This document shows positions 4,405-17,166 of a stretch of DNA of 50,304 nt, piece by piece. This stretch comes from a virus: positions 1-50,304 of the IMG/VR virus record IMGVR_UViG_3300046660_000304; one strand, written 5' to 3'. How positions within the stretch are numbered: the stretch's first letter is position 1; every line of letters begins with the position of its first letter. Made by a program: the position numbers and the translations under genes. The notes beneath the pieces were generated by a model. The model saw only the letters and a list, made by a program, of their open reading frames with translations, was not told where the DNA came from and made no database searches.

Positions 4405-4415
4405 CTTGCGCCGGT

Positions 4416-4432
4416 TGTAGAGAACTGAGAGA
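4416..4432 (+). promoter_or_regulatory. 17-base motif / promoter candidate before the lysis genes
   Basis: This is a full match to the motif (TGTAG AGAAC TGAGAGA). A TTGCGC hexamer at 4406-4411 lies 17 bases upstream of GAGATT at 4429-4434, giving -35/-10 geometry with an extended TGA before the -10. The holin start is at 4441, which leaves almost no leader if transcription begins here. Confidence 0.6.
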
Positions 4433-4440
4433 TTAAAGCC

Positions 4441-4668
4441 ATGTTCGGACTTCGCCTAATCGACAACGCCAAGCGCGACTTGCACCGTCTCTGGACGGTT
4501 CGCATCGCGCTTGCCTATGCCGTTTTTACCGGCATGGCGATGGTGCTCAGCGCCTTCGTGGACGTGTTCAACCCGTGGTTCCTGCTCACGCTCAGCGTGG
4601 TCGTGTCCGTCGCGATTGTCGTGTTGCGGCTGGTCAAGCAGAAAGACCCGATGGAGCCAATCGCATGA
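4441..4668 (+). CDS. Holin-like membrane protein (75 aa)
   Basis: The product has two hydrophobic stretches (about residues 20-38 and 45-63) separated by a short acidic and aromatic turn, and a charged C-terminus. Size, topology and its position directly upstream of the endolysin fit a holin or pinholin that depolarises or perforates the inner membrane. The stop overlaps the endolysin start (ATGA). No specific holin family is recognisable with certainty. Confidence 0.7.
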   Translation: MFGLRLIDNAKRDLHRLWTVRIALAYAVFTGMAMVLSAFVDVFNPWFLLTLSVVVSVAIVVLRLVKQKDPMEPIA

Positions 4669-5210
4669 CGGCGCGCAAAACAGCCATCACTGTCGCCAGC
4701 GCGGCGTCGATCGCCGCGGCAGTGCCAATGGTGAAGCATTACGAGGGGTTGTGGCTCACCGTTAAGCCGGACACGCTCGCGCACGGACTGCCGACGGGCG
4801 GCTACGGCGAAACCGAGAACGTCCGCCTCGGCGAGACACACGACGAGAAGTTTTGGGCCAACCGGCTCGCGCAGCGCCTGCCGGAATACGACCGCAAGAT
4901 CGGAACCTGCATCCACGTCGACCTGCCGGACGGTGTGCGCGCGGTCGCGATCTCACTGGCCTACAACGCCGGTCCTGCCGCGGTGTGCCGTTCGCCGATG
5001 GTGGCGAAGTGGAACGCGGGCAAGGTCCGCGAAGGCTGCGAGGCGATCCGCGGCTGGTACATTCGTTCTGCGGGCCAGGTGCGCCAGGGGCTCATCAACC
5101 GCCGCAACGACGAGACCCGCAAGTGCCTGGCCGGCATCGCCGCCAAGGCCGCACCAGTTGCGCCCGTAGCACCGCCGAAGAAGTCGTGGTGGAGCTGGAT
5201 CTTCAAATGA
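4665..5210 (+). CDS. GH24 endolysin, SAR type (181 aa)
   Basis: This is a lysozyme-like muramidase that cuts the glycan backbone of peptidoglycan. The catalytic region begins HYEGLWL with Glu27, followed by Asp36 and Thr44, in keeping with the E-8-D-5-T spacing of phage lysozymes. Residues 6-23 form a weakly hydrophobic, Ala/Ser-rich segment typical of a signal-arrest-release anchor, so the enzyme may be exported by the host Sec system and activated on release from the membrane. The start shares ATGA with the holin stop. The Pro/Ala-rich tail ends in a Trp-containing basic segment. Confidence 0.9.
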   Translation: MTARKTAITVASAASIAAAVPMVKHYEGLWLTVKPDTLAHGLPTGGYGETENVRLGETHDEKFWANRLAQRLPEYDRKIGTCIHVDLPDGVRAVAISLAYNAGPAAVCRSPMVAKWNAGKVREGCEAIRGWYIRSAGQVRQGLINRRNDETRKCLAGIAAKAAPVAPVAPPKKSWWSWIFK

Positions 5211-5557
5211 TCAACCTCATCCTGCAGCAGGCGTTCGCCGGCCTATGGGGCGAGGTCTGGCGCTTCGGCCTCGGCTTCGGGATTATGATCCTGCTGCTGG
5301 CCGCAGCGTATCTCTCGCCGATCTGGAAGAAAGACTTCCTGTGGGCCGCACTGGCCGTCGGCATTTTCATGATCGCTTTTACAACTGGAGTTGTCGTCGG
5401 TGAAAAACGTGTCAGAGCTCAGTGGATGGCTGCCGACGTCGCGGCGACCAAGCAATCTCAAGACGCGTACAGCGACGCTGCTCGTACTGTGCGCGGGAAG
5501 CCTTCTTGGTGGGTGCGTTCACACGGGCGGGATGTCGATTGCCGCGACTGCAAATGA
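5207..5557 (+). CDS. Putative inner-membrane spanin-like protein (116 aa)
   Basis: Two membrane segments (about residues 18-36 and 42-60) are followed by a charged periplasmic tail of about 55 residues. The start overlaps the endolysin stop (ATGA). A second reading frame inside its 3' half encodes a lipoprotein, the usual arrangement of nested Rz/Rz1 spanins. The tail is shorter than a classical i-spanin coiled coil and two membrane segments is unusual, so the assignment rests mainly on context. Confidence 0.6.
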   Translation: MINLILQQAFAGLWGEVWRFGLGFGIMILLLAAAYLSPIWKKDFLWAALAVGIFMIAFTTGVVVGEKRVRAQWMAADVAATKQSQDAYSDAARTVRGKPSWWVRSHGRDVDCRDCK

Positions 5558-5672
5558 AGCGCGATGCGGCTGGACACGACGCATCACCTACTCGATGCAC
5601 GACACGCCGCTGACCGTTGAACAGATCCGAATTCACAACAGGTCCGGTCGGACCATCAGGTGCTGGAAGTGA
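5391..5672 (+). CDS. Nested outer-membrane lipoprotein, o-spanin-like (about 90 aa)
   Basis: This frame lies out of register within the preceding gene and extends past it. A hydrophobic stretch ending in LLGGC is a lipobox, so the mature protein would be lipid-anchored at that Cys. The C-terminal part has two Cys and the pattern DTPLTVEQIRIHN, which resembles a small-protein family common beside phage lysis genes. No ATG precedes the signal; TTG at 5391 or GTG at 5400 or 5409 are possible starts, and the exact one is unsure. It may be an Rz1-type spanin or a lysis-associated lipoprotein. Confidence 0.6.
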   Translation: MSSVKNVSELSGWLPTSRRPSNLKTRTATLLVLCAGSLLGGCVHTGGMSIAATANEARCGWTRRITYSMHDTPLTVEQIRIHNRSGRTIRCWK

Positions 5673-5938
5673 CACGTCGACGACAGAATCAAGACGACAG
5701 CAACTGGCACTTGGATAAGAAAGTTCCGATCGCACTCATACTCGCCATGGCAATGCAGACCGCCGGCGTCGTCTGGTGGGGCGCTACCACCTCGGAGCGC
5801 TTGAGCGCGCTCGAGCGCAAGGCCGATGCCGCCGCCCCGCAGGCCGAGCGCCTGGCCCGCGTCGAGACCAAGCTGGAAGCTGTGCAAAACGGCATCTCCG
5901 AGATCAAATCAATCCTCACCCCTCCGGCCCGGCGCTAG
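5669..5938 (+). CDS. Membrane-anchored coiled-coil protein of the lysis cassette (89 aa)
   Basis: The GTG start overlaps the previous stop (GTGA). A basic N-terminus is followed by one membrane segment (about residues 20-38) and then an Ala/Glu/Leu-rich helix with heptad spacing. This resembles small phage proteins of unknown function found next to endolysins. A role in membrane-bound lysis control is possible but not shown. Confidence 0.6.
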   Translation: MTRRRQNQDDSNWHLDKKVPIALILAMAMQTAGVVWWGATTSERLSALERKADAAAPQAERLARVETKLEAVQNGISEIKSILTPPARR

Positions 5939-5988
5939 ACACTCACGTTCGTGTGAAGTAGATTAAATTCCAATTTATTACTTGACCT

Positions 5989-6005
5989 TCTCTCAGTTCT
6001 CTGCT
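5989..6005 (-). promoter_or_regulatory. 17-base motif, antisense, upstream of the repressor
   Basis: On the minus strand this reads AGCAG AGAAC TGAGAGA, exact in the two right-hand blocks. It points away from the repressor and against the lysis genes. On the plus strand it fills the 17-base stretch after a TTGACC hexamer (5982-5987), a possible -35 of the repressor promoter whose -10 is poor. It could therefore be an operator on the repressor's own promoter. Confidence 0.5.
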
Positions 6006-6016
6006 TTGTCGTGATT

Positions 6017-6037
6017 TGTCGGAGTTTGAGTCCGACA
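6017..6037. promoter_or_regulatory. Inverted repeat before the repressor gene
   Basis: Perfect 7-base arms TGTCGGA and TCCGACA are separated by 7 bases. The repeat ends 32 bases before the repressor start codon, in the leader of the gene, where an autoregulatory operator of an HTH dimer would be expected. No second copy was noticed. Confidence 0.5.
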
Positions 6038-6069
6038 TTACGAGAGCAGAGTTTTCGAGGGAGAGTGCT

Positions 6070-6528
6070 ATGGCGCGACGTGCAATTAGCCACTACAACA
6101 CGTTAGGCGAGAACCGTTCTTCGGGGGATAAGGCCGTGTACGCTGAGTTCGGGCGACGCCTTCAGGCGCGCATGATCGCGCTGGGCTGGAACCAGAGCGA
6201 GCTGTCTCGGCGCGCCACCGAGCATTTGCCGAAAGCCGCCAAAGGCCAGGTGCAGGGGCACAGCCTCGGCCGGGATCGCATTTCCAGCTACATCCGGGGA
6301 AAGTACCTGCCGCGGCCCGACGCGCTGGAGGCCATCGCCAAGGCGCTGGGCTGCAAGCCGTCCGACCTGCTGCCGGCCGCCGGGGTTCCTTCCGTCGCAG
6401 AAGAAGGCCCGCTGCTCGAGATGCGTTCCGTCGACGGCCAGCGGGTCGCCCTGCGCATCAACCGCGTGGTGTCCCTGACGACGGCGACCAAAATCATCGC
6501 GCTGCTCGAGCAGGAAGACAATGCCTAG
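6070..6528 (+). CDS. XRE-family HTH repressor-like protein (152 aa)
   Basis: A lambda-type helix-turn-helix covers about residues 25-95 (FGRRLQARMIALGWNQSELS, later RISSYIRG and DALEAIAKALGCKPSDLLP). The C-terminal 50 residues are a short domain without the Ser/Lys catalytic pair of LexA-like repressors, so self-cleavage is not expected. The ATG at 6070 follows GAGGGAGAG; an upstream TTG in frame would read through the inverted repeat and is less likely. It is co-transcribed with the excisionase-like and integrase genes, as in a lysogeny cassette, and could bind the 17-base motif or the inverted repeat. Its target is unknown. Confidence 0.8.
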   Translation: MARRAISHYNTLGENRSSGDKAVYAEFGRRLQARMIALGWNQSELSRRATEHLPKAAKGQVQGHSLGRDRISSYIRGKYLPRPDALEAIAKALGCKPSDLLPAAGVPSVAEEGPLLEMRSVDGQRVALRINRVVSLTTATKIIALLEQEDNA

Positions 6529-6949
6529 GTCGGCGGACGTCGTAGAGCAAGGTCTTTGCTCGATCGAAATGTTGAAAACTGCGCTAAAGGTTTCTCGACG
6601 TTCCATCGAGCGGGCGATCGCCGCCAAACTCATCCAGCCGTGCGCCTACACCATTACTGGCCGCAGGGCACGCTTCAGCAAACAACAGGTGGAGGGTCTG
6701 AAATGCCGCGCGAAAGAAAAACGGTCCCATGGCTCAAAGTACGTGATGGGGTCCATTACGTCTATTGGTACGATCCCGACGCCGAAGCCGGTGATGGTGA
6801 AGAAGCCGAGACCGGTAAAAAAGGCAAAGGCCGCACGAAGCGCCTCTCACTGGCTACGAAAGACCCGGTTGAAGCACGATCCCGATATGCTGCGTTCCTA
6901 TCAGGTGGCCATGAAATATTTGGACCTCGACGCGATGATCGACGACTAG
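6521..6949 (+). CDS. Excisionase-like HTH protein with long overlap into integrase (142 aa)
   Basis: The start overlaps the repressor stop (ATGCCTAG). Residues 12-60 look like a winged-helix or MerR-type fold, with IEMLKTALKVSRRSIERAI followed by ARFSKQQVEGLK, as in small recombination directionality factors. The remaining 80 residues are basic and overlap the integrase gene for 247 bases in another frame, so this tail is constrained by the integrase sequence. Its position between repressor and integrase supports a role in excision or integrase control. The N-terminal domain is the firm part; whether the tail is functional is unknown. Confidence 0.6.
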   Translation: MPRSADVVEQGLCSIEMLKTALKVSRRSIERAIAAKLIQPCAYTITGRRARFSKQQVEGLKCRAKEKRSHGSKYVMGSITSIGTIPTPKPVMVKKPRPVKKAKAARSASHWLRKTRLKHDPDMLRSYQVAMKYLDLDAMIDD

Positions 6950-7851
6950 ACGTCTCGACGGCGCTCGACCAGTATCGGTTGGAACACGTCAGCAAGGAAG
7001 TGGTCGATCGCGCTCGTGCCGAAGGCATCCTCGTGTTGCTCAAGCGATGGTTCAAGGACACCCCCGTCGAGGAGATCGACATCCCGGCGTGTCGGGCCTA
7101 CGCCGACGCGCGCATGGACGGAACCCTGATCGCCCCGAAGAATGAAGACGGTTCCGGGCGAGGCGGCCGCGCCGTGTCCGAATCAACGGCGCGCCGCGAA
7201 ATAGGGATCCTGAACGCGGCCGTGGAACACGCCGCGCGCTGGAAGCGGATCGGCCCCAAGGCCAAGCCGCCGACGTCGATGCCTTCGATCGAGCTGCCGG
7301 CCGGCGGCAAGCCGCGACTGGTCTTCCTGACCCGCGAGGAGCTCGACCGGGTAGTGAACGCTAGTGAAGGCCGGCTGCGCGAGTTTATCCTAGTGCTCTA
7401 TTACACGGCGGCCCGCCGGAGGTCCGTGGAGCGCCTTACCCGCTTCCAGGTCGATCTACGGGCCGGCACCGTGAACCTCACCAGCCCGCTGGAAACCCCG
7501 AATGAGCGCAACTCTAAGAAGCGTCGTCCGGTCGTGCCGATCCACGCCAAAATTCGGCCGATAATCGAGCGCCTGTATACGACCAGTGTGGCCGCCAATG
7601 TCGAGTGGCTGTGGGGCGACGACAAGGACATGTACACGCCGTTCAATGACCACCTGACCCGGCTAGGACTGGCCGACAAGGCGTTCCCTCATGTGCTTCG
7701 GCACAGCCGGGCGTCACACCTCTTGCAGGCCGGCGTGCCGATCGCGCACGTCGCCAAACTGCTGGGGGATACCATCGCGACGGTGGATCGGGTCTATGGT
7801 AAGATGGCGCCGGACGACGTTGCGGACGCAATCGCGGAGAGTGGGATATGA
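6703..7851 (+). CDS. int: Tyrosine-type site-specific integrase (382 aa)
   Basis: This enzyme would integrate the phage genome at a host attachment site. The catalytic core is visible: Arg238 in TAARRRSVERL, the box His330-x-x-Arg333 in HVLRHSRASHLL, and the nucleophile Tyr365 in VDRVYGK. The residue after LG, usually His, is Asp356 (LLGDTIATVDRVY), a variation seen in some integrases. The N-terminal part (residues 1-80) is an arm-binding-like domain rich in Lys and Glu. ATG 6703 follows GGTGGAGGG; upstream in-frame codons lie inside the overlapping gene. A terminator follows 140 bases downstream. Confidence 0.93.
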   Translation: MPRERKTVPWLKVRDGVHYVYWYDPDAEAGDGEEAETGKKGKGRTKRLSLATKDPVEARSRYAAFLSGGHEIFGPRRDDRRLDVSTALDQYRLEHVSKEVVDRARAEGILVLLKRWFKDTPVEEIDIPACRAYADARMDGTLIAPKNEDGSGRGGRAVSESTARREIGILNAAVEHAARWKRIGPKAKPPTSMPSIELPAGGKPRLVFLTREELDRVVNASEGRLREFILVLYYTAARRRSVERLTRFQVDLRAGTVNLTSPLETPNERNSKKRRPVVPIHAKIRPIIERLYTTSVAANVEWLWGDDKDMYTPFNDHLTRLGLADKAFPHVLRHSRASHLLQAGVPIAHVAKLLGDTIATVDRVYGKMAPDDVADAIAESGI

Positions 7852-7873
7852 GGCACTTTAAACCGGCGCTAAA

Positions 7874-7891
7874 TTGGCGCTGTAGCGCCAA
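7874..7891. repeat. Inverted repeat TTGGCGCT-GT-AGCGCCAA
   Basis: Eight-base arms pair perfectly around a 2-base centre just downstream of int. Further direct copies of GGCGCT lie at about 7864 and 8105. It may be a recombinase or excisionase binding site; it has no U-tract, so it is not a standard terminator. Confidence 0.6.
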
Positions 7892-7991
7892 ATGCGTGTA
7901 GAGTTTGTCGTCATTTATTTCTCTCACATGAGCAAAATCAACGGGATGTCGAAACTCTCACCTCTACAGTCCGCCCTAGTTTGGCTATAGC

Positions 7992-8018
7992 AAAAACCCC
8001 GCCTAGAGCGGGGTTTTT
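7992..8018. terminator. Bidirectional intrinsic terminator
   Basis: An 11-base perfect stem, AAAAACCCCGC / GCGGGGTTTTT with loop CTAGA, carries an A-tract on one side and a T-tract on the other, so it can stop transcripts from both directions. It separates the plus-strand lysogeny genes from the end of the minus-strand early operon. Confidence 0.92.
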
Positions 8019-8053
8019 CATTTAAGCCTTTGTATTTGTTCTAGAAACTGCGT

Positions 8054-8070
8054 TGCAGAGAAGTGAGATT
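8054..8070 (+). promoter_or_regulatory. 17-base motif copy near the convergent junction
   Basis: It reads TGCAG AGAAG TGAGATT on the plus strand, two or three bases off consensus. It points into the 3' end of the minus-strand operon, so it is one of the few copies not facing a sense gene. Confidence 0.35.
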
Positions 8071-8097
8071 TTCGAGAACAAACCGCGATTTGGGTCG

Positions 8098-8292
8098 CTA
8101 ACTGGCGCTGGAAGGTGCCTTGGTTGTGGTGCGGCGCTTCTGCTCTTTTTCGTACTTGCCGCACCAGCCGTCGGCGCGCACCGGCTTGATCTGGCTGCCG
8201 GACGGCGGGACGAACTCCGGCGGATCGAACCGGCAGAACCGGGTTTCCTCGACGGTGTGTCCGAAGCGGCAGGTGGCGCAGGTGTCGGTCAT
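8098..8292 (-). CDS. Small Cys-rich, zinc-ribbon-like protein (64 aa)
   Basis: The pattern CATC near the N-terminus, then RFC and GWC, suggests four metal-binding cysteines in about 45 residues; the tail is basic. It is the last gene of the minus-strand early operon, 11 bases after the SprT-like gene. Similar short Cys proteins are common in phages; the function is unknown. Confidence 0.65.
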   Translation of the reverse strand: MTDTCATCRFGHTVEETRFCRFDPPEFVPPSGSQIKPVRADGWCGKYEKEQKRRTTTKAPSSAS

Positions 8293-8303
8293 GGGCTGGT
8301 TCC

Positions 8304-8666
8304 TCAGTAGAAAACTTTGAGATCGAAACCGTGGATGTTGCAGACTTCCTCGGCCAGGCTGCGGAAGGCGCCGCTGTGCGTGTTCGCGGTGCCGCGGCCG
8401 TCCATGCCGAGCTCCTCGAGGTGCAGATGGATCAGCTCGTGCGCCAGCTTCCGGACCAGGGTGTCGGTGTGTCCGATGGCGTTGGCCGAAGCGGTGATCG
8501 TGTGCTGCTTGCCGTTCCACTGGTAATGGGCGCAATGGGTCCGGAACCGGCCCACCTTGAACTTGACGTCTTCGCTCGGCGGCAGGTTCCAACTGGAGAA
8601 CGGTGGCGTGAGCGACAGGAAGTCGTAGGCGGCCGCCAGCATCTCGGGGGTGAGCGGGAGGGTCAC
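8304..8666 (-). CDS. SprT-like zinc metalloprotease (120 aa)
   Basis: The HExxH zinc motif is clear at residues 76-80 (LAHELIHLHLEELG), with a third ligand candidate at His97 in NTHSGAF. Proteins of the SprT/Spartan type degrade proteins crosslinked to DNA or act in stress responses. The GTG start overlaps the stop of the upstream small membrane gene (GTGA). Its place in the same operon as DNA polymerase suggests a replication-linked role. The usual C-terminal zinc ribbon of longer SprT proteins is absent. Confidence 0.75.
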   Translation of the reverse strand: MTLPLTPEMLAAAYDFLSLTPPFSSWNLPPSEDVKFKVGRFRTHCAHYQWNGKQHTITASANAIGHTDTLVRKLAHELIHLHLEELGMDGRGTANTHSGAFRSLAEEVCNIHGFDLKVFY

Positions 8667-8836
8667 CGCCAGAGGTCTCTCGTCGCGAACACCTGCCACG
8701 AGGTGAAACAGGTTTGCACCACGCTGTAAGTCGCGGACACCCACACGGTCCACAAGTCTGGAAAGTGCAAAAGCAGCCACGCCTGCAACAACACGACGGC
8801 CCACATGACGACCAATAACCCGACCAAAAGCTTCAC
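8663..8836 (-). CDS. Small membrane protein (57 aa)
   Basis: The GTG start overlaps the DNA polymerase stop (GTGA) and the stop overlaps the SprT-like start. The N-terminal 25 residues form a membrane segment; the rest is aromatic-rich with Trp and Phe. No family was recognised. The tight coupling on both sides supports it as a real gene. Confidence 0.6.
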   Translation of the reverse strand: MKLLVGLLVVMWAVVLLQAWLLLHFPDLWTVWVSATYSVVQTCFTSWQVFATRDLWR

Positions 8837-10863
8837 TTCTGATACCTCCGCGCCTTGAATCCGGACACAGCCAGTGGCAGGCCCTCGGCCCACTCCGGCA
8901 GCGTCGCCATCAGTTGCTTGAATTCGTCGAGGCTGCCGAAGTCCTCCGACGTCTCGCTGACCACTTCGTCGTGCACCGACAACACGACAGGATACCCTGC
9001 GTTCTCGACACGGACGATGGCCTCGGCTTCCACGTCGCGCGCGGTGCCCTGGACGGCGTTGTTGGCCAAGAGGCCGCCGTGCGCGAACTGGTCTGTCCAT
9101 TGGCGGGTGAACTGGTCGACGCCCTTGTAACAGATCGAGTCCTTCCAGACTGGCAACTGCTCGTAGACGGCGGGCGCGTCGTCGGTGGCCGGCAAAATCA
9201 TCTTGCCCTGCGTCGTCCAGGGCATCAGCTTGCGCTTCATGCAGGGGTAGGGGTAGCAAATCGCGCGGCCGCTCGGCAGACGCATGTAGAGAAACGAGCC
9301 CGCCTTGCGGAAGGCGATGCGGCCAGCGTGGTAGGTCGTGCCAGGGTTGGCGATCGCATCCTTGGCGGCCTGCTCGAGGTCGTACCACCACTGCACCACG
9401 TTCGGGTGCGCCTCGCGCCATGCGACCTTGAGCTCGTCGGCGCGCGCGTCCTCGACGATGACGCCATAGCCGACTGCCATCTTCTGGAAGGCGCCGACGC
9501 CCCCCTGGTAGCCGAGCGCGAGCTCCATCACCTTGCCGATTTGACGCTGGTCGTCCCCCACCGATTCCGGCTCGACGGAGAACGAGCGCGCGTAGGCCAG
9601 TTTGTAGATGTCATGGCCGACGCCGGCGTCGAAGTCGCGGAACGCCTGCAGCTTCCACTGCTCGTCGGCGAACCACGCGATCAATCGGCCTTCGATGTTA
9701 CTGAAGTCCGCGGCGTAAAGAGCGCATCCCGGAGCGGCCCCCACAAGTCCTCGGAGGACATCACTGACAACCGAGAGGGGATCGCCGTGGACGAGGGCGA
9801 CGAAATCGGCGGAACCGGTAGCAACGGCTTCGATATAGGCGGGGACGGCCTTTTTATTTTTTGGTCGACGGATGTTTTGCGGCTGGAATCTGCGCCCGCC
9901 CCAGCGGCCAGTGCTTGCGACATGAAATTGAAGAAGTCCGCGTGCACGGCTATCACGGCTGGCGCCGCTAACGAGCGCGTCGATTTTCTTGACGGCGGCG
10001 CCACCGCCTTCGGCCCGGATTTCGAGCACGCGCCGGACGTCTCTTGGGAGGTCGCATCCCAATAGATCGGCGACGTGGGCCTTGTCCAACGATTCCGTGG
10101 AAACCCCCTGCGCGGCAAGCCAGCTGACAAGCTGGTCGACGGCGGTGATTTTGGTGACGTCTCCATCCGTGATCTCCGCGAGTTCTTCGTTCAGCCACCT
10201 GGCCACATCGCTGACGACGGCCAGCGCACTCCGACAGAGTGACGTGTCTACGTAAATGCCGCGGTCGTTGATGACCTGATCCAGATGCCAGAGTGCCTGT
10301 TCGGACGTGCGCAGCGGCAATAGGTGCTGTTCGATCTTGCGCTCGACCACGACGTCGGTCTTGCAGTAGGCGTACAGCCGCTGCCGGCGCTCCTCGTCGT
10401 CCCACCACAACAGCTTGTCCGTCGGCTCGCCTTTGCGCGGCTTGCGTGGCTTGCTCATCCGCAGCATCAGCGAATGGCCTTCCTTGTCCTTCACGACGTC
10501 GAGGTGCAGCGCTGGCGCGCACTGCTCGAGTTTCCCTGGCAGGGCCATGGCGAGCGCCTGCACCATGACGCAGCGCCAGCTCTCCGCGCGCGGCGCCGGC
10601 CAGCCGTAGCGGGGCACAAGCACGCCGGCGGTCATCGCGCGCTCGAATGCGGCGTTCCAGGCGTGGACGGTTTCGGTGTGCTTGATGGCGTGTTTGATGT
10701 CGCGGTCGTCGAGATCCGGATGCCAGAGCTTCACCGGTTCGTTGTCGATCGCGTAGGCGGCGCACCAGACGTCGGTGCTCTCGTCCTCTGCATAGACGTA
10801 GGCGCCGGTCTTCTTCAGATCGACGGCGCTACGGCTTTCATAGTCGAGGTGGAGCGACGTCAC
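8833..10863 (-). CDS. Family A DNA polymerase (676 aa)
   Basis: This is the replicative polymerase of the phage. The N-terminal region carries a 3'-5' exonuclease-like signature (LDYES near residue 5, HAWNAAFE, then YCKTDVVVE). The polymerase domain has motif A with Asp386 in AADFSNIEGR, the O-helix motif B in RQIGKVMELALGYQGG, and motif C as His631-Asp632-Glu633 in SVHDEV. The length fits phage PolA enzymes without a 5' nuclease domain. GTG 10863 overlaps the methylase stop (GTGA). The operon also supplies ssDNA-binding protein, exonuclease and RecB-like nuclease; the primase-helicase is encoded elsewhere at 21-22.9 kb. Confidence 0.95.
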   Translation of the reverse strand: MTSLHLDYESRSAVDLKKTGAYVYAEDESTDVWCAAYAIDNEPVKLWHPDLDDRDIKHAIKHTETVHAWNAAFERAMTAGVLVPRYGWPAPRAESWRCVMVQALAMALPGKLEQCAPALHLDVVKDKEGHSLMLRMSKPRKPRKGEPTDKLLWWDDEERRQRLYAYCKTDVVVERKIEQHLLPLRTSEQALWHLDQVINDRGIYVDTSLCRSALAVVSDVARWLNEELAEITDGDVTKITAVDQLVSWLAAQGVSTESLDKAHVADLLGCDLPRDVRRVLEIRAEGGGAAVKKIDALVSGASRDSRARGLLQFHVASTGRWGGRRFQPQNIRRPKNKKAVPAYIEAVATGSADFVALVHGDPLSVVSDVLRGLVGAAPGCALYAADFSNIEGRLIAWFADEQWKLQAFRDFDAGVGHDIYKLAYARSFSVEPESVGDDQRQIGKVMELALGYQGGVGAFQKMAVGYGVIVEDARADELKVAWREAHPNVVQWWYDLEQAAKDAIANPGTTYHAGRIAFRKAGSFLYMRLPSGRAICYPYPCMKRKLMPWTTQGKMILPATDDAPAVYEQLPVWKDSICYKGVDQFTRQWTDQFAHGGLLANNAVQGTARDVEAEAIVRVENAGYPVVLSVHDEVVSETSEDFGSLDEFKQLMATLPEWAEGLPLAVSGFKARRYQK

Positions 10864-11342
10864 AGCTGCACCAGAGTGCCGGGCAACCCGCAAAAATCGA
10901 GCGCCATCACGTCGTACTCGCCATAAGCGACCAAACAGGAGGGCGCACCGGCATTAGCTGGCGCTTTGATTCCCGCGGCGTCGTGGAAGCAAAGACGTCC
11001 ATGAAGAAACAACACGGCGTCTGCGGCGTTCCAGACCGTCTCCACAAACCAAGCAGTCTCGGTTCGTGCAAAAATTAGCGCAGTCCCGCAGCCGTGCGCT
11101 GCCAGTTTACGCATCCACAGCACGGCGTCGCGGCTGTACGGAGGATTACACCAAACCCTACCTTCCCACGGCTGCACCAGTCCGTCGTCTTCTTTTGTGT
11201 AACGACGTTTCGCTGTAGTCCAAGGCATTACTGGCGGCGTGCAAGGGTCTAAGTCGAACGTCCCCAGCGACCGAATGATGTGGGGAGGCGTCAACCAAGT
11301 GTCAGTTTGGTTCACGGGGGACTCGTGGCCGCCGATGCTCAT
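10860..11342 (-). CDS. Phage N6-adenine DNA methyltransferase, Dam family (160 aa)
   Basis: The layout matches small phage Dam-type methylases: an N-terminal TDTWLTPPHII segment, FDLDPCTPP, then the catalytic NPPY motif in VWCNPPYSRD. It would transfer a methyl group from S-adenosylmethionine to adenine in DNA; the target sequence cannot be read from the protein. The start overlaps the stop of the GcrA-like gene (ATGA) and its stop overlaps the polymerase start. Since GcrA acts at methylated adenine sites in alphaproteobacteria, the pairing is notable. Confidence 0.9.
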   Translation of the reverse strand: MSIGGHESPVNQTDTWLTPPHIIRSLGTFDLDPCTPPVMPWTTAKRRYTKEDDGLVQPWEGRVWCNPPYSRDAVLWMRKLAAHGCGTALIFARTETAWFVETVWNAADAVLFLHGRLCFHDAAGIKAPANAGAPSCLVAYGEYDVMALDFCGLPGTLVQL

Positions 11343-11605
11343 TTGCGCTCCCGCACATATTCGTCCACTGGCACGATCTTTGATGGCGCCTCGGACGGCC
11401 GGCGCACCACGCTGTGCTCGACGCCGTGAATCATGTTCTCCAGCACGCCGACTTGCAGGCCGTAGCCATGGTGGCAGAGCTCGTGATGCTCCTCGCAATA
11501 GGAACTGCCGACGATCGCCGGCTCGCCACAGAACAGGAACGGCGTGTCGTCTGTCACACAGTAGCGGCACTCGTGCGAGCGGATGGTCAGAATGTCGCGA
11601 ATCAT
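11339..11605 (-). CDS. GcrA-like C-terminal domain protein (88 aa)
   Basis: The segment SHECRYC...FLFCGEP...GSSYCEEHHELC resembles the Cys/His-rich C-terminal part of the alphaproteobacterial cell-cycle regulator GcrA, which binds the sigma-70 holoenzyme. The N-terminal DNA-binding region of full GcrA is missing, so this protein may act only through RNA polymerase. The start was set at ATG 11605, just after a 17-base motif copy. It is followed by the Dam-type methylase with ATGA overlap. The family match is from memory of the motif pattern and is moderately sure. Confidence 0.65.
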   Translation of the reverse strand: MIRDILTIRSHECRYCVTDDTPFLFCGEPAIVGSSYCEEHHELCHHGYGLQVGVLENMIHGVEHSVVRRPSEAPSKIVPVDEYVRERK

Positions 11606-11617
11606 TGGCCCCTGCAA

Positions 11618-11634
11618 TCTCTCAGTTCGCAACA
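11618..11634 (-). promoter_or_regulatory. 17-base motif before the GcrA-like gene
   Basis: It reads TGTTG CGAAC TGAGAGA, one base off consensus, in the only sizeable gap (62 bases) between the GapR-like and GcrA-like genes. It is 12 bases upstream of the start codon. Confidence 0.6.
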
Positions 11635-11667
11635 CCGGCGGCGCAGAAACGCCGCCGGTGGTAGTTG

Positions 11668-11988
11668 TCAATCCAGGATGCCGAGGGCACTCATGTAGGT
11701 GTCCAGCACGGCCTCGGCGCTCTCGCGCTTCGCACGCTTGGACTCATCCTCCATCTGCCGCTTGACGATGGCCTTGATAGCAGCGGGCTCGAACCCGTTG
11801 CCCTTCGCCTCCTTGGCCAGCTCCTTTACATCCTGACGGATGTCGTCGGCTGCCTCGGCCAGGGTGGTGAAACGCTCGACGTAGCTCTTGAGCTGGCCGT
11901 TCGAATTGTGACCCGGCGCCGGCGGCTTGGCGGAGGTCACGGTGGCGTTGTGCTTCGCGGCCACCTCCGCGGCTGTCAGCGTCTTCAT
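11668..11988 (-). CDS. GapR-like DUF2312 nucleoid protein (106 aa)
   Basis: After a 30-residue linker, the protein shows the DUF2312 pattern: QLKSYVERFTTLAEAADDI, DVKELAKEAKGNGFE, AIKAIVKR, and a C-terminal DTYMSALG. GapR of Caulobacter belongs to this family and binds overtwisted DNA, helping replication and transcription. A phage copy could coat the phage DNA or affect the host nucleoid. ATG 11988 overlaps the exonuclease stop (ATGA). Confidence 0.85.
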   Translation of the reverse strand: MKTLTAAEVAAKHNATVTSAKPPAPGHNSNGQLKSYVERFTTLAEAADDIRQDVKELAKEAKGNGFEPAAIKAIVKRQMEDESKRAKRESAEAVLDTYMSALGILD

Positions 11989-12521
11989 GCTGCTTTGCTC
12001 CGTAGGGCGAGCGCCGCCGCAACACACCGAACCTGGTGCTTCGCGTCGTCGAGCGCGTTGTGGTAGGTGCCGGCGCGCTTGACGACGGCGGGGTTCATGT
12101 CGGCGATGTCGTAGACAGTTCGGGTGTCGCGGACGTTCCAGAACTTCCACGGCACCGGATTGTTGACGGCCAGTGCGGCAGCTTCCCAAAGGGCGGGATC
12201 GAAGTTCGCCCCTTGAGCCCACACCTTGCCCGTCAGACCCACGTTGGCGATGAACCAGCCGTGGAAGTCTGCGACGACCCACGGCAACGGCCGGGGATCG
12301 ACAAGCAAGGAATCGCGGGCCTCTTTGCTCTGGCGCGACCACCACTCGGCGGTGTTCGCGTCAACCGTCAGACCTGCGGTGTGACAGGTCTGCTGGTCGA
12401 TGTTGTAGTAGAGCTCCGGTCCCATGGTGCCGTCGAGTTCGAACACCACGGCGCCGATCGAACGCAACACGCTGCCGGGCTTGGTCCCGAACGTCTCAAG
12501 GTCGAGCATCACATGTTTCAT
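11985..12521 (-). CDS. DEDD-type 3'-5' exonuclease (178 aa)
   Basis: The first exonuclease motif is MLDLETFG with Asp7 and Glu9, followed by a conserved RSIGAVVFELDG strand, a middle Asp in QGANFDPALW, and a C-terminal HNALDDAKHQ box carrying the His/Asp pair of the DEDDh group. This layout matches the phage and bacterial Rv2179c-like exonuclease family. It likely degrades single strands during replication or recombination. It overlaps its neighbours by ATGA on both sides. Confidence 0.85.
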   Translation of the reverse strand: MKHVMLDLETFGTKPGSVLRSIGAVVFELDGTMGPELYYNIDQQTCHTAGLTVDANTAEWWSRQSKEARDSLLVDPRPLPWVVADFHGWFIANVGLTGKVWAQGANFDPALWEAAALAVNNPVPWKFWNVRDTRTVYDIADMNPAVVKRAGTYHNALDDAKHQVRCVAAALALRSKAA

Positions 12522-12775
12522 TTGCGTGCTTTCTTGGTGAGCAATCGGGCCAGTGCCAGGATGTGGTCCGCTTGTTCGTAAAGCGAGATCGCGGCGAGCC
12601 ACACCGTTGTGGCGTGCTCCCGGAGGGCGGCGTGGCCCTCCGGATCGGTCTCGAGTTCGATGGGCTTGACCGCGCTCACGACGTCGCCAAAGGCGTCGCG
12701 AGTTTCCTTCATGCCATCACCGAGCAGCAGCAAGTCGGAGAGCTGCGTCTTGAGGCGGTCGATGTCGTCTGACAT
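12518..12775 (-). CDS. Hypothetical helical protein (85 aa)
   Basis: An all-helical acidic protein without cysteines or membrane segments and no recognised family. The start is 8 bases after the ssDNA-binding protein gene and its stop overlaps the exonuclease start, so it is clearly an operon member. Confidence 0.65.
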   Translation of the reverse strand: MSDDIDRLKTQLSDLLLLGDGMKETRDAFGDVVSAVKPIELETDPEGHAALREHATTVWLAAISLYEQADHILALARLLTKKARK

Positions 12776-12783
12776 TGGCCGGC

Positions 12784-13398
12784 TCAGAAGATGTCGTCGG
12801 TCGAGGCGGGCTTGCCACCGGACGGCGCGGCACCAACGTCGGCGACGTCGAAGCCAGCGTTGGACGTGTTGCCGCCGGCCATGCCGAGACGTTCGTCGTG
12901 GTCAAGCAGCTGCACGCGGTTGAGATTCCAGCCGACACCGAGGCTGCCGGTCGTGTAGCCCCAAGCGGCGCCAGCGATCACGCACCAGCGGCCGCCATAG
13001 ACCTCTGACTTGTCGCCCTTGAACGGCTTGGCGTCCGGCCCGAACACCGCCGGCGGGAAGTCTTCGTTGGCGGACGGCTTGAGCGCGTAGGGGTACGCTT
13101 CGGCGAGTTCGGCCAGGCGAGGGAATTCCTCTGCGGTCTTGACGAGCGGACGGCGCAGCTTGAGTTCCTTCCACTTCTTGCCGTGGGTCTCTTCGGCGGC
13201 GCGGATGATCTCGTTCTTGATCTCCTCGATGTCAGCCGCGGCGGGGATCAGCGCCACGCAGCTGAACTTCGGCTTGCTGCCGGGCACCTTCGGATTCGGG
13301 ACGGCCGTGAAAAAGGCGGGGCGGAACACGAGCCGCACCTTCGGCGACATGATCTCGCCGGTCTCTTCGTTCTTCCAAGCTTTCAACAATTTCGACAT
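12784..13398 (-). CDS. Single-stranded DNA-binding protein, DUF2815 type (204 aa)
   Basis: The sequence follows the phage ssDNA-binding family related in role to T7 gp2.5: VRLVFRPAFFTAVPN near the N-terminus, KFSCVALIP, a long charged middle, SEVYGGRWCVIAGAAWGY, and GWNLNRVQLL. The tail is acidic and ends in DDIF, the kind of C-terminus such proteins use to contact replication partners. The ATG is only 2 bases after a 17-base motif copy. Confidence 0.85.
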   Translation of the reverse strand: MSKLLKAWKNEETGEIMSPKVRLVFRPAFFTAVPNPKVPGSKPKFSCVALIPAAADIEEIKNEIIRAAEETHGKKWKELKLRRPLVKTAEEFPRLAELAEAYPYALKPSANEDFPPAVFGPDAKPFKGDKSEVYGGRWCVIAGAAWGYTTGSLGVGWNLNRVQLLDHDERLGMAGGNTSNAGFDVADVGAAPSGGKPASTDDIF

Positions 13399-13400
13399 TT

Positions 13401-13417
13401 TCTCTCACTTTTCGACA
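13401..13417 (-). promoter_or_regulatory. 17-base motif abutting the ssDNA-binding gene
   Basis: It reads TGTCG AAAAG TGAGAGA in a 30-base gap. It ends 2 bases from the start codon, so a promoter at this site could not yield a normal leader. Confidence 0.65.
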
Positions 13418-13428
13418 AAAAGGACACG

Positions 13429-14607
13429 TTAAAGGTCGGTCGTGTCCGTTACCGATTGGTCTTCGAACCCATTGGCCGCCGTGGCGTCGATCGCGGGCCG
13501 CGGATCGCTCAGCGGCGCCAGCACGGTCCCGCTGGACTCTGCCTTGGCCAGATCCTTGAGCAGCGCCTTCTTCGCCTTCGGCAGCAGCTTCTCGACCACC
13601 GCTGGCGACTTCAGCTTCGGCGGCTCGTAGAGGTCATCGAGATCGGCGCCGGCGGCGACGAGCTCACGACCGGCGGCCTCCTCATCGACCCACTTGCGGA
13701 AGGCGCGCTTCGGCACGAGCTTGGCGCCTGGTGGCGGGTTGCCGGCGACTGCCTGTGCGTGCAGGAAGCCCTCGCGCCCCTTCAGCCACTGGCCGACCAG
13801 GTTCAACTCCGACTGCTCGATTTGCCAGTCCTGCAGCGGTTTCGCTTCCGGTTGCTCGAGACCCATGATCGCCTTCACCTTCTTTTCGAGCGCGCCGCAG
13901 AACCCGGCAGCTTTGCAAAACTTGCAGTGATCGCCGACAACCAGCGGCGCGTTCGGATCCTCGACGGCAACCGCCGCAGACTGCAGCGCGGCGACGTGTT
14001 CGTAGAGCTCAATGACGCCGGTGCTCCAGCGGCGCACCGGCCCACCAGGGTGCGGTGCGCGCGGCTGCACGATAATCAATTCCACCTCGCGGATGCCACG
14101 GTTGTGGTAGCGCTCGGCGACGCCCATGGCGTAGGTGAGGAGCTGTTCGTTCTCCTCGACCTCGACGGCGACGCCCTTGCCGTACTTGAGGTCCGCGATC
14201 GTGACTTTCTGCGTCGCCTCTTTGTAGGCGATGATGTCGCCGGTGCCGAACACGCCGGGCACCAGCGCCGTCATGTCCATCCGTTGCTCGCTCTCGAACT
14301 CGTCCGATTCAGCGCGCAACTCCTCGGCGACGTCGAGGTAGACCTGGACCGCCTCGACCATCTCCGGCGTCACGACGAACTTCTGCTCGCCGACGAAGAT
14401 CATCTCGCCGGCAAACCGTGACGCGGGGAAGGCACCCTTTATGCACATCTCGGCGAGCTCATGCGCGGCGGTGCCTTCTGCGGCGAACACGCTGCCAACG
14501 TCGACGATGCCGGATGACATCCGGATCGAGCCAGGGCAGGCCAGCCAACGGTGTGCGCTGGAGGGAGCGAGCGTAGCGTGGGCGCGGTCGGAGTGTTGTG
14601 GGGTCAC
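13429..14607 (-). CDS. DUF2800 protein, RecB/Cas4-like nuclease (392 aa)
   Basis: Typical features of DUF2800 phage proteins are present: an N-terminal SSAHRWLACPGS, a GTAAHELAE segment, then GTGDIIAYKE and IADLKYGKGV with the Asp and Asp-x-Lys expected of PD-(D/E)XK nucleases, and a C-terminal Cys cluster (HCKFCKAAGFC) like the iron-sulfur or zinc site of RecB-family enzymes. It probably works with the ssDNA-binding protein in recombination or replication. GTG 14607 overlaps the previous stop (GTGA). Confidence 0.85.
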   Translation of the reverse strand: MTPQHSDRAHATLAPSSAHRWLACPGSIRMSSGIVDVGSVFAAEGTAAHELAEMCIKGAFPASRFAGEMIFVGEQKFVVTPEMVEAVQVYLDVAEELRAESDEFESEQRMDMTALVPGVFGTGDIIAYKEATQKVTIADLKYGKGVAVEVEENEQLLTYAMGVAERYHNRGIREVELIIVQPRAPHPGGPVRRWSTGVIELYEHVAALQSAAVAVEDPNAPLVVGDHCKFCKAAGFCGALEKKVKAIMGLEQPEAKPLQDWQIEQSELNLVGQWLKGREGFLHAQAVAGNPPPGAKLVPKRAFRKWVDEEAAGRELVAAGADLDDLYEPPKLKSPAVVEKLLPKAKKALLKDLAKAESSGTVLAPLSDPRPAIDATAANGFEDQSVTDTTDL

Positions 14608-14843
14608 GCACGCCCCCTTGGCTCGTAGTGGCCCTGCACGCACATGTATCGCTCGATGGTGTAGGCGTCGTTCCGGTAGATCGGGTGCTGCGCCTTCCAT
14701 GCCGCGAGCGGCGCCTGGCCGCCCATGAGGCAGCCTTGGAATGTCAGACCGTCCGTCAACGTGGAGTCGGTGACGATCTCCTCCACGCAGACAGGTGTGG
14801 CGCCGATCATGTGGCAGACGAATGCGACGACGGTCACGAACAT
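14604..14843 (-). CDS. Small exported-like Cys protein (79 aa)
   Basis: A hydrophobic N-terminus (MFVTVVAFVCHMIGA) resembles a signal peptide or membrane anchor. Three further cysteines are spread through the remainder (VCVEE, FQGCLMGGQ, RYMCVQGHY). Proteins of this shape recur in alphaproteobacterial phages, with unknown function. The stop of the upstream gene directly precedes its ATG. Confidence 0.6.
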   Translation of the reverse strand: MFVTVVAFVCHMIGATPVCVEEIVTDSTLTDGLTFQGCLMGGQAPLAAWKAQHPIYRNDAYTIERYMCVQGHYEPRGRA

Positions 14844-15353
14844 CTACGCCTCCGCTGTGCCGTTGAGATACGCTTCCGACGCTTCCAGGAACTCTGCGAA
14901 CTGCTCCGGCTTGAGCTGCGGCGCCTTGGCGATGCCGAACGGGCCGTAGAGCTTCTGGATGTACGCGACCGTCTCAGGCATCGACATGCCGCGCTTGGTG
15001 CACGCCGCCGAGATCGCCTGCAGCCGCGGTTTGATGTCGCCGTCGAGCGTCAGTTCTTTCGCGGTTTCCGCCGGCGCGCCGCCGAGGTCGGAAATATCGT
15101 CGTTGAGTTCTTCGGTCTTGGTCTTTGGCTTGGGACCGCGCTTTTTCCCGGCGGTTGGCGCCGGCGCTTCGGCGAACTCTTCGACGATCTTATCGGCCGC
15201 AACCTGTTCAGCGACGGTCTCTTCGACCACGACAACTTCGGCCACTGGCTCGGCCGGCATCGCCGTCGATCCCTTGAGCATGATCGAAAGCGTCTTGATG
15301 CAGTTGAAGTACAGTTCTTCCGGCGTGTTGCCGGTGATCTCAAGCCGATGCAT
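14844..15353 (-). CDS. Hypothetical protein with AT-hook-like basic centre (169 aa)
   Basis: The first 30 residues look like a small alpha-beta unit, followed by an acidic Val/Glu/Ala stretch, a basic KKRGPKPKTK patch that resembles an AT-hook, and a helical C-terminal 80 residues. DNA binding is possible. The start overlaps the end of the winged-helix gene by 14 bases and has a 17-base motif copy upstream. Confidence 0.6.
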   Translation of the reverse strand: MHRLEITGNTPEELYFNCIKTLSIMLKGSTAMPAEPVAEVVVVEETVAEQVAADKIVEEFAEAPAPTAGKKRGPKPKTKTEELNDDISDLGGAPAETAKELTLDGDIKPRLQAISAACTKRGMSMPETVAYIQKLYGPFGIAKAPQLKPEQFAEFLEASEAYLNGTAEA

Positions 15354-15717
15354 GTGCGGTCTCCCTTCTCTCAGTTTGCGACATTTCAGGCAAGATGGTG
15401 AGGCGATAGCCACGCCCCCACGTGTTCTCGACGTCCAGCCCTATGGGCCGGATCTTGTTCCGCAACTGCGTCACGGATACTTTGATGTTGGTGTCGGCGT
15501 AATCGGGCTCGTCGGCGCCCCACATCTGCTGCGTGATCGTGGCGTGGGAGACGGTCTCCGGCATCCGACGTGCGAGCGCAAACGCCAGGTCGGTCAGGCG
15601 CGACGTGAGGCGGATGGAGTGTTCGCGAAACCGCAACCGGTTCTCTTCCAGGCTGACAACGACCGTGGACGACATCGTGGTCGCTTGGCCGCAACACGGG
15701 CACTTATTCTCAGTCAC
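15340..15717 (-). CDS. PhoB/OmpR-type winged-helix regulator with Cys knuckle (125 aa)
   Basis: Residues 30-105 match the effector domain of OmpR/PhoB response regulators: LTSRLTDLAFALARRM, then a recognition helix region KVSVTQLRNKIRP and the wing NTWGRGYRLT. There is no receiver domain; instead the N-terminus has CPCCG, a possible metal knuckle. It is therefore a phosphorylation-independent DNA binder, probably a phage transcription regulator. The start is GTG 15717, 9 bases after a doubled 17-base motif. Confidence 0.85.
   Translation of the reverse strand: MTENKCPCCGQATTMSSTVVVSLEENRLRFREHSIRLTSRLTDLAFALARRMPETVSHATITQQMWGADEPDYADTNIKVSVTQLRNKIRPIGLDVENTWGRGYRLTILPEMSQTERRETAHASA
15367..15383 (-). 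promoter_or_regulatory. 17-base motif inside the winged-helix gene
   Basis: It reads TGTCG CAAAC TGAGAGA with TTGCCT at 15388-15393, 17 bases before a GAGAAG hexamer. It lies in the 3' end of the winged-helix gene, 13 bases before the start of the next gene. Confidence 0.6.
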
Positions 15718-15726
15718 TTGATTCTC

Positions 15727-15743
15727 CCTCTCTGTTCCGTTTC
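15727..15743 (-). promoter_or_regulatory. Degenerate 17-base motif, tandem copy
   Basis: It reads GAAAC GGAAC AGAGAGG, matching only the two right-hand blocks. It abuts the better copy at 15742-15758, giving a tandem pair before the winged-helix gene. Confidence 0.35.
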
Positions 15744-15758
15744 TCTCACTTCTCTACA
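15742..15758 (-). promoter_or_regulatory. 17-base motif / promoter candidate before the winged-helix gene
   Basis: An exact copy (TGTAG AGAAG TGAGAGA) with TTGACG at 15763-15768 spaced 17 bases from GAGAAA. It occupies the 52-base gap between the 93-aa gene and the winged-helix gene. Confidence 0.65.
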
Positions 15759-15769
15759 CGCGCGTCAAG

Positions 15770-16051
15770 TCAACCCAGCAACAAATTCTTGTATTCCCGC
15801 AGCGTCGGCGATAGTTCTTCGGCGGCGATCTTTTTCGACACCTCGACGATCCAGTGCGCGGTGCATGCTTCAGCCAGGGTCATCATCTCAGGCAGCGTCA
15901 TCGAGTTAATCGGCCGCATCGTGTTGACGGACTGCTTCAGGTGCGCGGCCATCGCCCACGCGCAGCTCTCGCGCAGCGCGTCCACCCATTGATCGTCGGG
16001 GTTCGGTGGCCGCGGACGCGTCTCCGGCGCCGGCTTCTCAGGTTTCGGCAT
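15770..16051 (-). CDS. Hypothetical protein (93 aa)
   Basis: A Pro-rich N-terminal 20 residues is followed by helices with Met- and Ala-rich faces. No family was recognised. The start overlaps the upstream gene by 14 bases, and the next gene has its own motif-marked start. Confidence 0.55.
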   Translation of the reverse strand: MPKPEKPAPETRPRPPNPDDQWVDALRESCAWAMAAHLKQSVNTMRPINSMTLPEMMTLAEACTAHWIVEVSKKIAAEELSPTLREYKNLLLG

Positions 16052-16295
16052 GAGGGTCTTGTGGTGGTTTCACAGGATCGTGGAAGAGGCGCATCTCAAC
16101 GTCCTCAAATTCTTCCGCATCCACCACGTCTGACGGGTCGATAATCAGCTCTGCGAGGTCATTGAATTCATCATCGTCGGCCTCGTCCTCGACCAACTTC
16201 TGATAACGCTCGAACGTCTCGCGGCTGATGGTCCTGATCTGGTCGTAGGACACTTCTTGCCGGGCCGTGATCCTAACCGTGACTGTATCGCTCAT
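16038..16295 (-). CDS. Hypothetical acidic protein (85 aa)
   Basis: A short beta-rich N-terminus (DTVTVRITARQEVSYDQI) precedes a strongly acidic helix with many Asp and Glu. The start overlaps the previous stop by one base (TGATG). Acidic early phage proteins often act as inhibitors or DNA mimics, but nothing here proves it. Confidence 0.55.
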   Translation of the reverse strand: MSDTVTVRITARQEVSYDQIRTISRETFERYQKLVEDEADDDEFNDLAELIIDPSDVVDAEEFEDVEMRLFHDPVKPPQDPHAET

Positions 16296-16759
16296 CAAAC
16301 TTCTCCTGAATGGTGTTGCGAAGGAAGCTCTGAACCCATCCCGCAGACGCCGCAGCGATCCTGGCCGGGCCAATGATTGCAGCGGGGAGGCTCTTCCTTC
16401 ATGTATCGGATACGCTCGGCGCACTCGTCGCATGCGTCCTGCATGATTTTGTATTGGCTGGTTGCCAACAGCGCCTTGTGAATGTCCTTGACGTAAAGTT
16501 CACCAGCCCAATCGCCTAACTGGTCACAAACCTTCGCGCACTCTTCGATGATGGCGTCTCGGTCCTTCTTTGCAGAACCCAATCCGTTGATCAGGTTTGC
16601 GAGATGAGCGTCCTTCGTCATGAACGCCTGTATTACAGAGGACAGCGTGAGCGCGGTGATCTGGGGCGGGACATCCGTCTCTCCGGATTCGAAGCGCTTG
16701 GCGAGCGTCTCAAGGCGGGACAGCTCGACCAAAATTGAAGTCTCTTGCGTGACGGTCAT
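16295..16759 (-). CDS. Hypothetical protein with C-terminal Cys cluster (154 aa)
   Basis: The protein is helical. The C-terminal third carries CDEC, CNHW and CGVCG, enough for one or two zinc sites. ATG 16759 overlaps the stop of the upstream 63-aa gene (ATGA). No family was recognised. Confidence 0.6.
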   Translation of the reverse strand: MTVTQETSILVELSRLETLAKRFESGETDVPPQITALTLSSVIQAFMTKDAHLANLINGLGSAKKDRDAIIEECAKVCDQLGDWAGELYVKDIHKALLATSQYKIMQDACDECAERIRYMKEEPPRCNHWPGQDRCGVCGMGSELPSQHHSGEV

Positions 16760-16947
16760 TTTCCGATCCTGCCTCGATAAGGCTCTGTAGTGGTCCAATG
16801 GGCGGCCAACTGTTCCGCAGCCGATGGTTTCAATCCCGCTCGCCTTGTCATCAGCTCGACAAGATCCGCCTTCCCCAACTGCCGGCGCGCTCCGAACCTG
16901 TAGAGCGCGCCAAGCCTGATTTCCTGGACCGCCTTACGCTGCGGCAC
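16756..16947 (-). CDS. Hypothetical small basic protein (63 aa)
   Basis: GTG 16947 is the most likely start (a TTG at 16965 is possible); both overlap the end of the first operon gene. The central LGKADLVELMTRRAGLKPSAAEQLAAHW looks like two helices of a small helical domain with DNA-binding character, but no family is assigned. Confidence 0.5.
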   Translation of the reverse strand: MPQRKAVQEIRLGALYRFGARRQLGKADLVELMTRRAGLKPSAAEQLAAHWTTTEPYRGRIGK

Positions 16948-17095
16948 ACTCGTCTCCCGCCTCAATCCAGTCCAAAATCATGTCGCGGAGCTGTTCGTCC
17001 GAGGCGGCTTCGATCACGGCCAGGTCGAACTTGCATTCGAAGATCGCCGCGATTTCGAGTTCTGCCCGGCTGGTGTTCTGGTCGATGATGGTCAT
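16934..17095 (-). CDS. First gene of the leftward early operon (53 aa)
   Basis: A small acidic helical protein that begins after GGGAGACGG and lies immediately downstream of a near-consensus sigma-70 promoter. It was not recognised as any family. Being the first product of the operon, it may have an immediate early function. Confidence 0.6.
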   Translation of the reverse strand: MTIIDQNTSRAELEIAAIFECKFDLAVIEAASDEQLRDMILDWIEAGDECAAA

Positions 17096-17117
17096 GTCCG
17101 TCTCCCGTGATCTGATA

Positions 17118-17146
17118 TTGCGTTTATAAGCGATATTGGATATGAT
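17118..17146 (+). promoter_or_regulatory. Rightward promoter of the RHH gene
   Basis: TTGCGT at 17118-17123 and TATGAT at 17141-17146 are 17 bases apart. The spacer contains one half-operator (ATAAGCGATATT) and a palindromic operator lies just downstream of the expected start site, so the promoter looks self-repressed. Confidence 0.75.
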
Positions 17147-17151
17147 GTCAA
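17123..17151 (-). promoter_or_regulatory. Leftward early promoter
   Basis: On the minus strand, TTGACA (17146-17151) and TATAAA (17123-17128) are spaced exactly 17 bases, close to sigma-70 consensus and the best promoter in the window. It overlaps the rightward promoter almost entirely and drives the 8.1-17.1 kb operon. Confidence 0.85.
17126..17137. promoter_or_regulatory. Operator half-site O1
   Basis: ATAAGCGATATT repeats the left arm of the palindrome at 17153-17166. It sits between the -35 and -10 of both promoters, where bound protein would block polymerase. Confidence 0.6.
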
Positions 17152-17152
17152 T

Positions 17153-17166
17153 AAGCGATATCGCTT
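17153..17166. promoter_or_regulatory. Palindromic operator O2
   Basis: AAGCGATATCGCTT is a perfect 14-base palindrome, 26 bases from the copy in O1 as measured between arm starts. It ends 15 bases before the RHH start codon. Ribbon-helix-helix dimers commonly bind such short palindromes in tandem. Confidence 0.7.

Follow-up and report, generated by a model that had tools for sequence, protein, structure and literature searches.

A free GcrA sigma-interacting domain beside a GapR-like gene in a viral replication operon

The virus record IMGVR_UViG_3300046660_000304, analysed here over its full 50,304 bp (the window), encodes an integrase, an endolysin, a terminase and a major head protein. It also carries a tight minus-strand operon in which GapR-like, GcrA-like and Dam-type methylase genes (products P0001, P0002 and P0003) lead from a single-stranded DNA-binding protein and an exonuclease into a family A DNA polymerase (PolA). 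An earlier reading of the DNA alone (the sequence-only reading) had seen in these three genes a hint of a module for the takeover of host cell-cycle transcription. The genes do lie at this place, and all three domain matches exceed the Pfam cut-offs (Table 1). The central finding concerns P0002. By profile, by a profile built without it and by predicted fold, this protein is the sigma-interacting domain (SID) of the sigma-70 cofactor GcrA, encoded on its own.

Along the minus strand, the gene order is single-stranded DNA-binding protein, small unknown gene, exonuclease, GapR-like, GcrA-like, Dam-type methylase and PolA. By coordinates, 4-nt overlaps join the exonuclease to the GapR-like gene, the GcrA-like gene to the methylase and the methylase to PolA. 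A scan with the sigma-70 consensus revealed no promoter.

A sigma-interacting domain without its DNA-binding half

In Caulobacter GcrA, residues 1-45 bind methylated DNA and residues 108-173 bind domain 2 of sigma (PMC7403470). P0002 matches PF07750 with 28.8 bits (cut-off 26.9), only over profile positions 102-144 of 155. No second PF07750 segment is present anywhere in the record, where the sole match covers profile positions 88-144, and a profile of the DNA-binding domain gave zero matches in the GcrA-like frame. As the sequence-only reading had proposed, the GcrA C-terminal domain thus stands here without the DNA-binding half. P0002 also falls below the NCBIfam GcrA equivalog NF050816 (17.8 bits, cut-off 280). 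When the six-frame translation of the window was searched with a SID profile built without P0002, this protein was the sole match (E 1.7e-15), which places the SID homology well beyond chance. The conserved SID Cys and His residues are all retained, and the frame appears to be coding. A longer frame of 110 amino acids from a TTG codon is possible but was judged less likely; the ATG at 11605 is the likelier start because AGGGG lies just upstream and an 11-bp hairpin separates this ATG from the GapR stop codon.

The AlphaFold2 model of P0002 is confident to about residue 45 and of low confidence over residues 49-76, in the C-terminal tail. Compared with 350,542 PDB chains, it gave three matches at E up to 10, all of them GcrA (5yix_B, 7ye2_G and 7ye1_G), the best being 5yix_B with a probability of 0.99 and 1.3 Å over 41 columns of a 48-residue chain. 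The E-values of these matches are weak (0.15-0.29), as is to be expected of so short a domain. The sequence-only reading had staked its GcrA assignment on such a comparison, and the model superposes on GcrA chains only. Relative to Caulobacter crescentus GcrA, the source of the SID structure 5yix, P0002 shares the SID sequence, the predicted fold and the conserved Cys/His residues but has neither the N-terminal methyl-DNA-binding domain nor the linker, and its C-terminal tail is different.

GcrA-family proteins are likewise encoded by phiCbK (gp222), Rhizobium phage RHph_Y1_10 and Synechococcus phage Ssp-JY42. The protein of phiCbK-like phages was described in 2012 and proposed to raise the expression of host replication genes (PMC3556154), and phage GcrA was noted again later (PMC9437464). 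Unlike P0002, the two phage GcrA proteins that we examined are full length and include the DNA-binding half. Among the viral contigs compared here (L numbers), full-length GcrA is encoded by L003, L004, L048, L133, L135 and L139 and a compact form without linker by L154, L157 and L158, while the SID alone is found in the window, L148-L153, L180, L184, L188 and L200. Five sequences of one SID-only lineage group together with 99/97 support, to the exclusion of the window protein; therefore, two origins of the SID-only form are likely, although a single one is possible.

In L133, L135 and L139 the corresponding position before PolA is taken by full-length GcrA, and the SID-only form of the window fits a loss of the DNA-binding half. 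That a once full-length phage GcrA is decaying here is very improbable, however, given that the conserved Cys/His residues all persist, that the coding-looking frame overlaps the next gene and is thereby coupled to it, and that SID-only genes recur in other lineages.

Table 1 Features of the operon and its surroundings in the window
Feature	Position	Strand	Evidence
Family A DNA polymerase (PolA), GTG start	8833..10863	-	phrog_17 E 9e-97
Dam-type N6-adenine methyltransferase P0003, 160 amino acids, NPPY motif	10860..11342	-	PF05869 56.1 bits (cut-off 28.1); phrog_111 160 bits
GcrA SID alone, P0002, 88 amino acids	11339..11605	-	PF07750; leave-one-out profile; fold model
11-bp GC-rich hairpin without T-run, between GapR stop and GcrA-like start	11633..11660	-	fold z = -2.69
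GapR-like protein P0001, 106 amino acids	11668..11988	-	PF10073 62.3 bits (cut-off 22.6); PDB GapR matches; residue comparison
Exonuclease upstream of GapR-like gene	11985..12521	-	phrog_255 E 1e-46
Small unknown gene	12518-12775	-	
Gp2.5-like single-stranded DNA-binding protein	12784..13398	-	phrog_112 E 2e-21
Exonuclease, start of open reading frame uncertain	13429..14700	-	phrog_69 E 3e-100
Stand-alone winged-helix (Trans_reg_C) protein without receiver domain	15340..15717	-	PF00486 46 bits

The neighbouring genes and the slot before PolA

Like GapR (DUF2312, UPF0335) and its proposed homologue T4 DsbA (PMC7824862), P0001 carries the PF10073 domain, with two long helices in its model. Its sequence matches in the PDB are GapR structures (best E 2e-13), while its score lies below the NCBIfam GapR equivalog NF052541 (56.4 bits, cut-off 140) and a fold search with the model gave no useful match. 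Six GapR lysines, K34, K42, K49, K56, K59 and K66, are reported as DNA contacts (PMC7373187). P0001 keeps the equivalents of K42, K49 and K59 and has lost K34, K56 and K66; only three of the six are likewise present in 6 of the 94 sequences compared. Furthermore, the structural pair E28-R65 of GapR is replaced by T and Q, and P0001 has a 3-residue insertion relative to GapR. Considering that the oligomerising helices are kept while several DNA-contact residues are lost, P0001 most likely acts on topology in phage replication or joins host GapR in mixed tetramers. P0001 and P0002 share a trend in that each keeps the partner-binding part and loses DNA contacts.

The methylase P0003 belongs to the PF05869/phrog_111 phage methylases. 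Its closest relatives, about 61-66% identical, come from Gordonia, Mycobacterium and Pseudomonas phages, from which it differs only in its setting in the replication operon of an alphaproteobacterial phage. It is matched by 383 phage records of many hosts, mostly Gordonia, Vibrio and Lactococcus, and lies outside the family of CcrM by Pfam, its sole match being PF05869 and not PF01555. PF05869 occurs in none of the 49 alphaproteobacterial phage records related to the window through polymerase, GapR or GcrA, and 25 long contigs related via the methylase contain zero GcrA and zero GapR above the cut-off. A conserved module of the three genes, as implied by the sequence-only reading, is not borne out by these counts, nor by the position of the closest methylases in actinobacterial phages. 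We thus rejected the Dam gene as a fixed module member and consider it probably a mobile gene for protective modification. A Mom-like DNA modification protein is encoded at 17976-18449 (-) (phrog_1384, E 8e-12). This gene fits the same protective need and, judging from the two matches, adenine modification may be the task of two enzymes in this phage, one Dam-type and one Mom-like.

The gene content before PolA varies between related phages. Full-length GcrA directly precedes PolA in L133 and L139, whereas in L135 a DpdA-type DNA-modification gene (PF23859, 142 bits) stands between GcrA and PolA. In L218 it is GapR that directly precedes PolA, and in L211 GapR is followed by a PF01555 methylase that ends at the PolA start. 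L106 and L107 have a single-stranded DNA-binding protein, GapR, a winged-helix gene and further genes, including a C5 methylase in L107; the winged-helix gene directly after GapR in L106 is of the same kind as that of the window (37 bits). GapR, GcrA and a DNA-modification gene thus each turn up repeatedly in a slot of changing content, and the trio of the window is one way of filling it. The DpdA-type gene, of the 7-deazaguanine DNA modification family, was also observed at L142:737-1564 (-), which is the same gene as L135:7165-7992.

A sister contig of 24.5 kb (L105) contains the same block with zero nucleotide differences in the GapR-like, GcrA-like and Dam-type genes. The two are 99.6% identical over positions 8826-17673 of the window, with 34 of the 36 mismatches in the polymerase gene and mostly synonymous, as against 95.3% over 799-8665. 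This difference in identity on either side points to recombination within the polymerase gene or close to it. An SprT-like gene (PF10263, 27 bits) adjoins the polymerase gene at 8304-8804 (-).

GapR, GcrA and DnaA genes in other phages

Of 455 viral contigs recovered by an alignment-based scan for GapR, 80 were kept. At the threshold applied, a SID gene lies near GapR in 10 of 79 loci, nine times within 1.3 kb. Across whole contigs, a SID is present in 11 of 50 GapR-positive records; the gap between GapR and GcrA is 0.3-1.1 kb in seven of these 11 shared contigs and 16-20 kb in the other four. The closeness in seven of 11 has a P of about 4e-7 under uniform placement and of about 7e-4 with an assumed collapse to four of eight independent lineages, values that overstate the case because early genes cluster anyway. 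GcrA is not enriched in the presence of GapR (11/50 GapR-positive against 3/22 GapR-negative polA relatives). Trios with methylases of other families exist but are rare: in L199 a stretch of 1.4 kb contains GcrA, a PF01555 methylase and GapR, and in L233 a putative methylase with an NPPF motif and no Pfam match lies downstream of GapR. Of the three-gene grouping in the sequence-only reading, the proximity of GapR and GcrA is thus also seen in other phages, and SID-only GcrA recurs as well, but the Dam gene is absent alongside them.

These data bear on the possibility that the operon is a mosaic of unrelated accessory genes before PolA, in which a GapR associated with replication, a fragment of GcrA and an anti-restriction methylase stand side by side with no joint function. 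The missing co-occurrence of the Dam gene with GapR or GcrA, the about equal frequency of GcrA with and without GapR, the varying content of the slot (L133, L139, L135, L218, L211 and L107) and the additional Mom-like gene all point in this direction. However, uniform placement would put GapR and GcrA much farther apart than they are, with seven of 11 pairs within 1.3 kb, an argument that weakens if lineages are collapsed. On balance, we consider a mere mosaic unlikely, though by no means negligible.

A second type of partner is the helix-turn-helix domain IV of DnaA. A 446-amino-acid open frame at L181:4822-6162 (IMGVR_UViG_3300033997_000310) fuses this domain (Bac_DnaA_C, residues 147-209, 36 bits) to a GcrA SID (residues 382-420, 28 bits), and the same 115-kb contig also encodes GapR (113 bits). 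No relative of the fusion was found in viral or phage collections, so that it is known from a single contig. The nearest parallel to the window is L200, where the gene for a SID-only protein of 63 amino acids immediately follows a DnaA domain IV gene and GapR comes 1.1 kb later. In one scan 15 of 15 SID loci, mostly from related phages, had a DnaA domain IV gene no more than 0.3 kb away, and among GapR-linked SID loci five of 12 had one within 0.9 kb. A second SID scan gave linkage in one of 31 cases, namely the L181 fusion itself. The contrast between the two scans suggests that the DnaA neighbourhood is bound to certain lineages; DnaA domain IV was not found in the window. No description of a SID-only GcrA, a DnaA-SID fusion or a phage GapR-GcrA pair was found in the literature searched, which was thin in subscription papers and thus gives weak evidence. 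Free and DnaA-fused SIDs appear to be undescribed, while full-length phage GcrA is already known.

Such arrangements raise the possibility that the SID is a recruiter that holds sigma-70 polymerase on phage DNA with the help of a DNA-binding partner encoded by a gene of its own. This would be DnaA domain IV in other phages and GapR or the winged-helix protein in the window. The L181 fusion joins both domains in one open frame, DnaA domain IV adjoins SID genes in the 15 of 15 and five of 12 loci above, GapR and GcrA are separated by short gaps in seven of 11 shared contigs, and T4 DsbA, termed a GapR homologue, is a potential late-promoter activator (PMC7824862). Nevertheless, the window has no DnaA domain IV, the fusion stands alone, the second scan shows hardly any DnaA linkage, and the GapR-like protein of the window has lost DNA-contact lysines. 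We therefore regard recruitment as a serious candidate but a rather doubtful one.

The host and a possible action on sigma-70

The relatives of GapR and GcrA, together with GANTC depletion, suggest that the host is probably an alphaproteobacterium, and likely one with GANTC methylation. GANTC occurs 76 times in the window against 125.5 expected and is the most depleted of 16 palindromes. No prophage relatives were found in two scans of bacterial genomes. Many phages with related PolA, with or without GcrA, are wholly free of GANTC, whereas depletion is only mild in the window and in several GcrA phages. Near-absence of GANTC was rejected as a mark of GcrA phages because polA relatives without GcrA also lack the motif. 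Zero sites against 16-33 expected, with normal GATC counts, were observed in L111, L114, L120-L122, L125, L126, L130, L132, L135 and L138. In L004, L049 and record PP395640.1 the recorded hosts are Synechococcus or Microcystis, yet these phages carry GcrA or GapR genes, which are typically alphaproteobacterial; the recorded hosts may be wrong, and the phages may have come from companion bacteria in the cultures.

For the window, we consider it quite possible, if somewhat short of even, that the free SID takes the place of host GcrA on domain 2 of host sigma-70. P0002 would be made together with the replication proteins and would bind domain 2 of sigma-70 in the RNA polymerase holoenzyme. With this site filled, host GcrA would be displaced and host sigma-70 uncoupled from methylated GANTC cell-cycle promoters. 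As a free domain, the SID would bind sigma-70 without choosing promoters. The methylase would act separately, as a DNA-modification gene in the slot before PolA that relatives use for other modification genes. P0002 would then act like AsiA and Gp39, phage appropriators of sigma-70, in being a small phage protein on host sigma-70, with no homology claimed; AsiA and Gp39 target sigma domain 4 (PMC7403470), whereas the SID would target domain 2.

Several points weigh against displacement. The DnaA-SID fusion of L181 and the frequent DnaA domain IV neighbours of SID genes favour recruitment over competition. The identity of the SID rests on profile and predicted fold rather than on sigma-contact residues, and the fold model is not independent of the sequence because its input alignment included GcrA relatives. 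Finally, this account gives no role to the C-terminal tail of P0002. Of the takeover module first suggested for this locus, the SID identity and the closeness of GapR and GcrA stand, while the setting is a replication operon and takeover is one reading among several.

More broadly, and with doubt prevailing, the SID might be a portable sigma-70-binding module in alphaproteobacterial phages, used alone or with DnaA domain IV or GapR to redirect host polymerase during phage replication. It is equally tentative that DnaA domain IV, joined by fusion or as a neighbouring gene, and GapR, joined as a neighbouring gene, are both drawn in as parts of the host replication circuit. If the SID does bind domain 2 of sigma-70, it would be a phage factor on the region of sigma that is used by the known activators RbpA, Crl and GcrA, whereas the described phage repressors of sigma bind domain 4. 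The free SID would then also offer a naturally occurring minimal version of GcrA, in which the effect of sigma binding on transcription, be it activation or blockage, could be studied separately from methyl-DNA binding.

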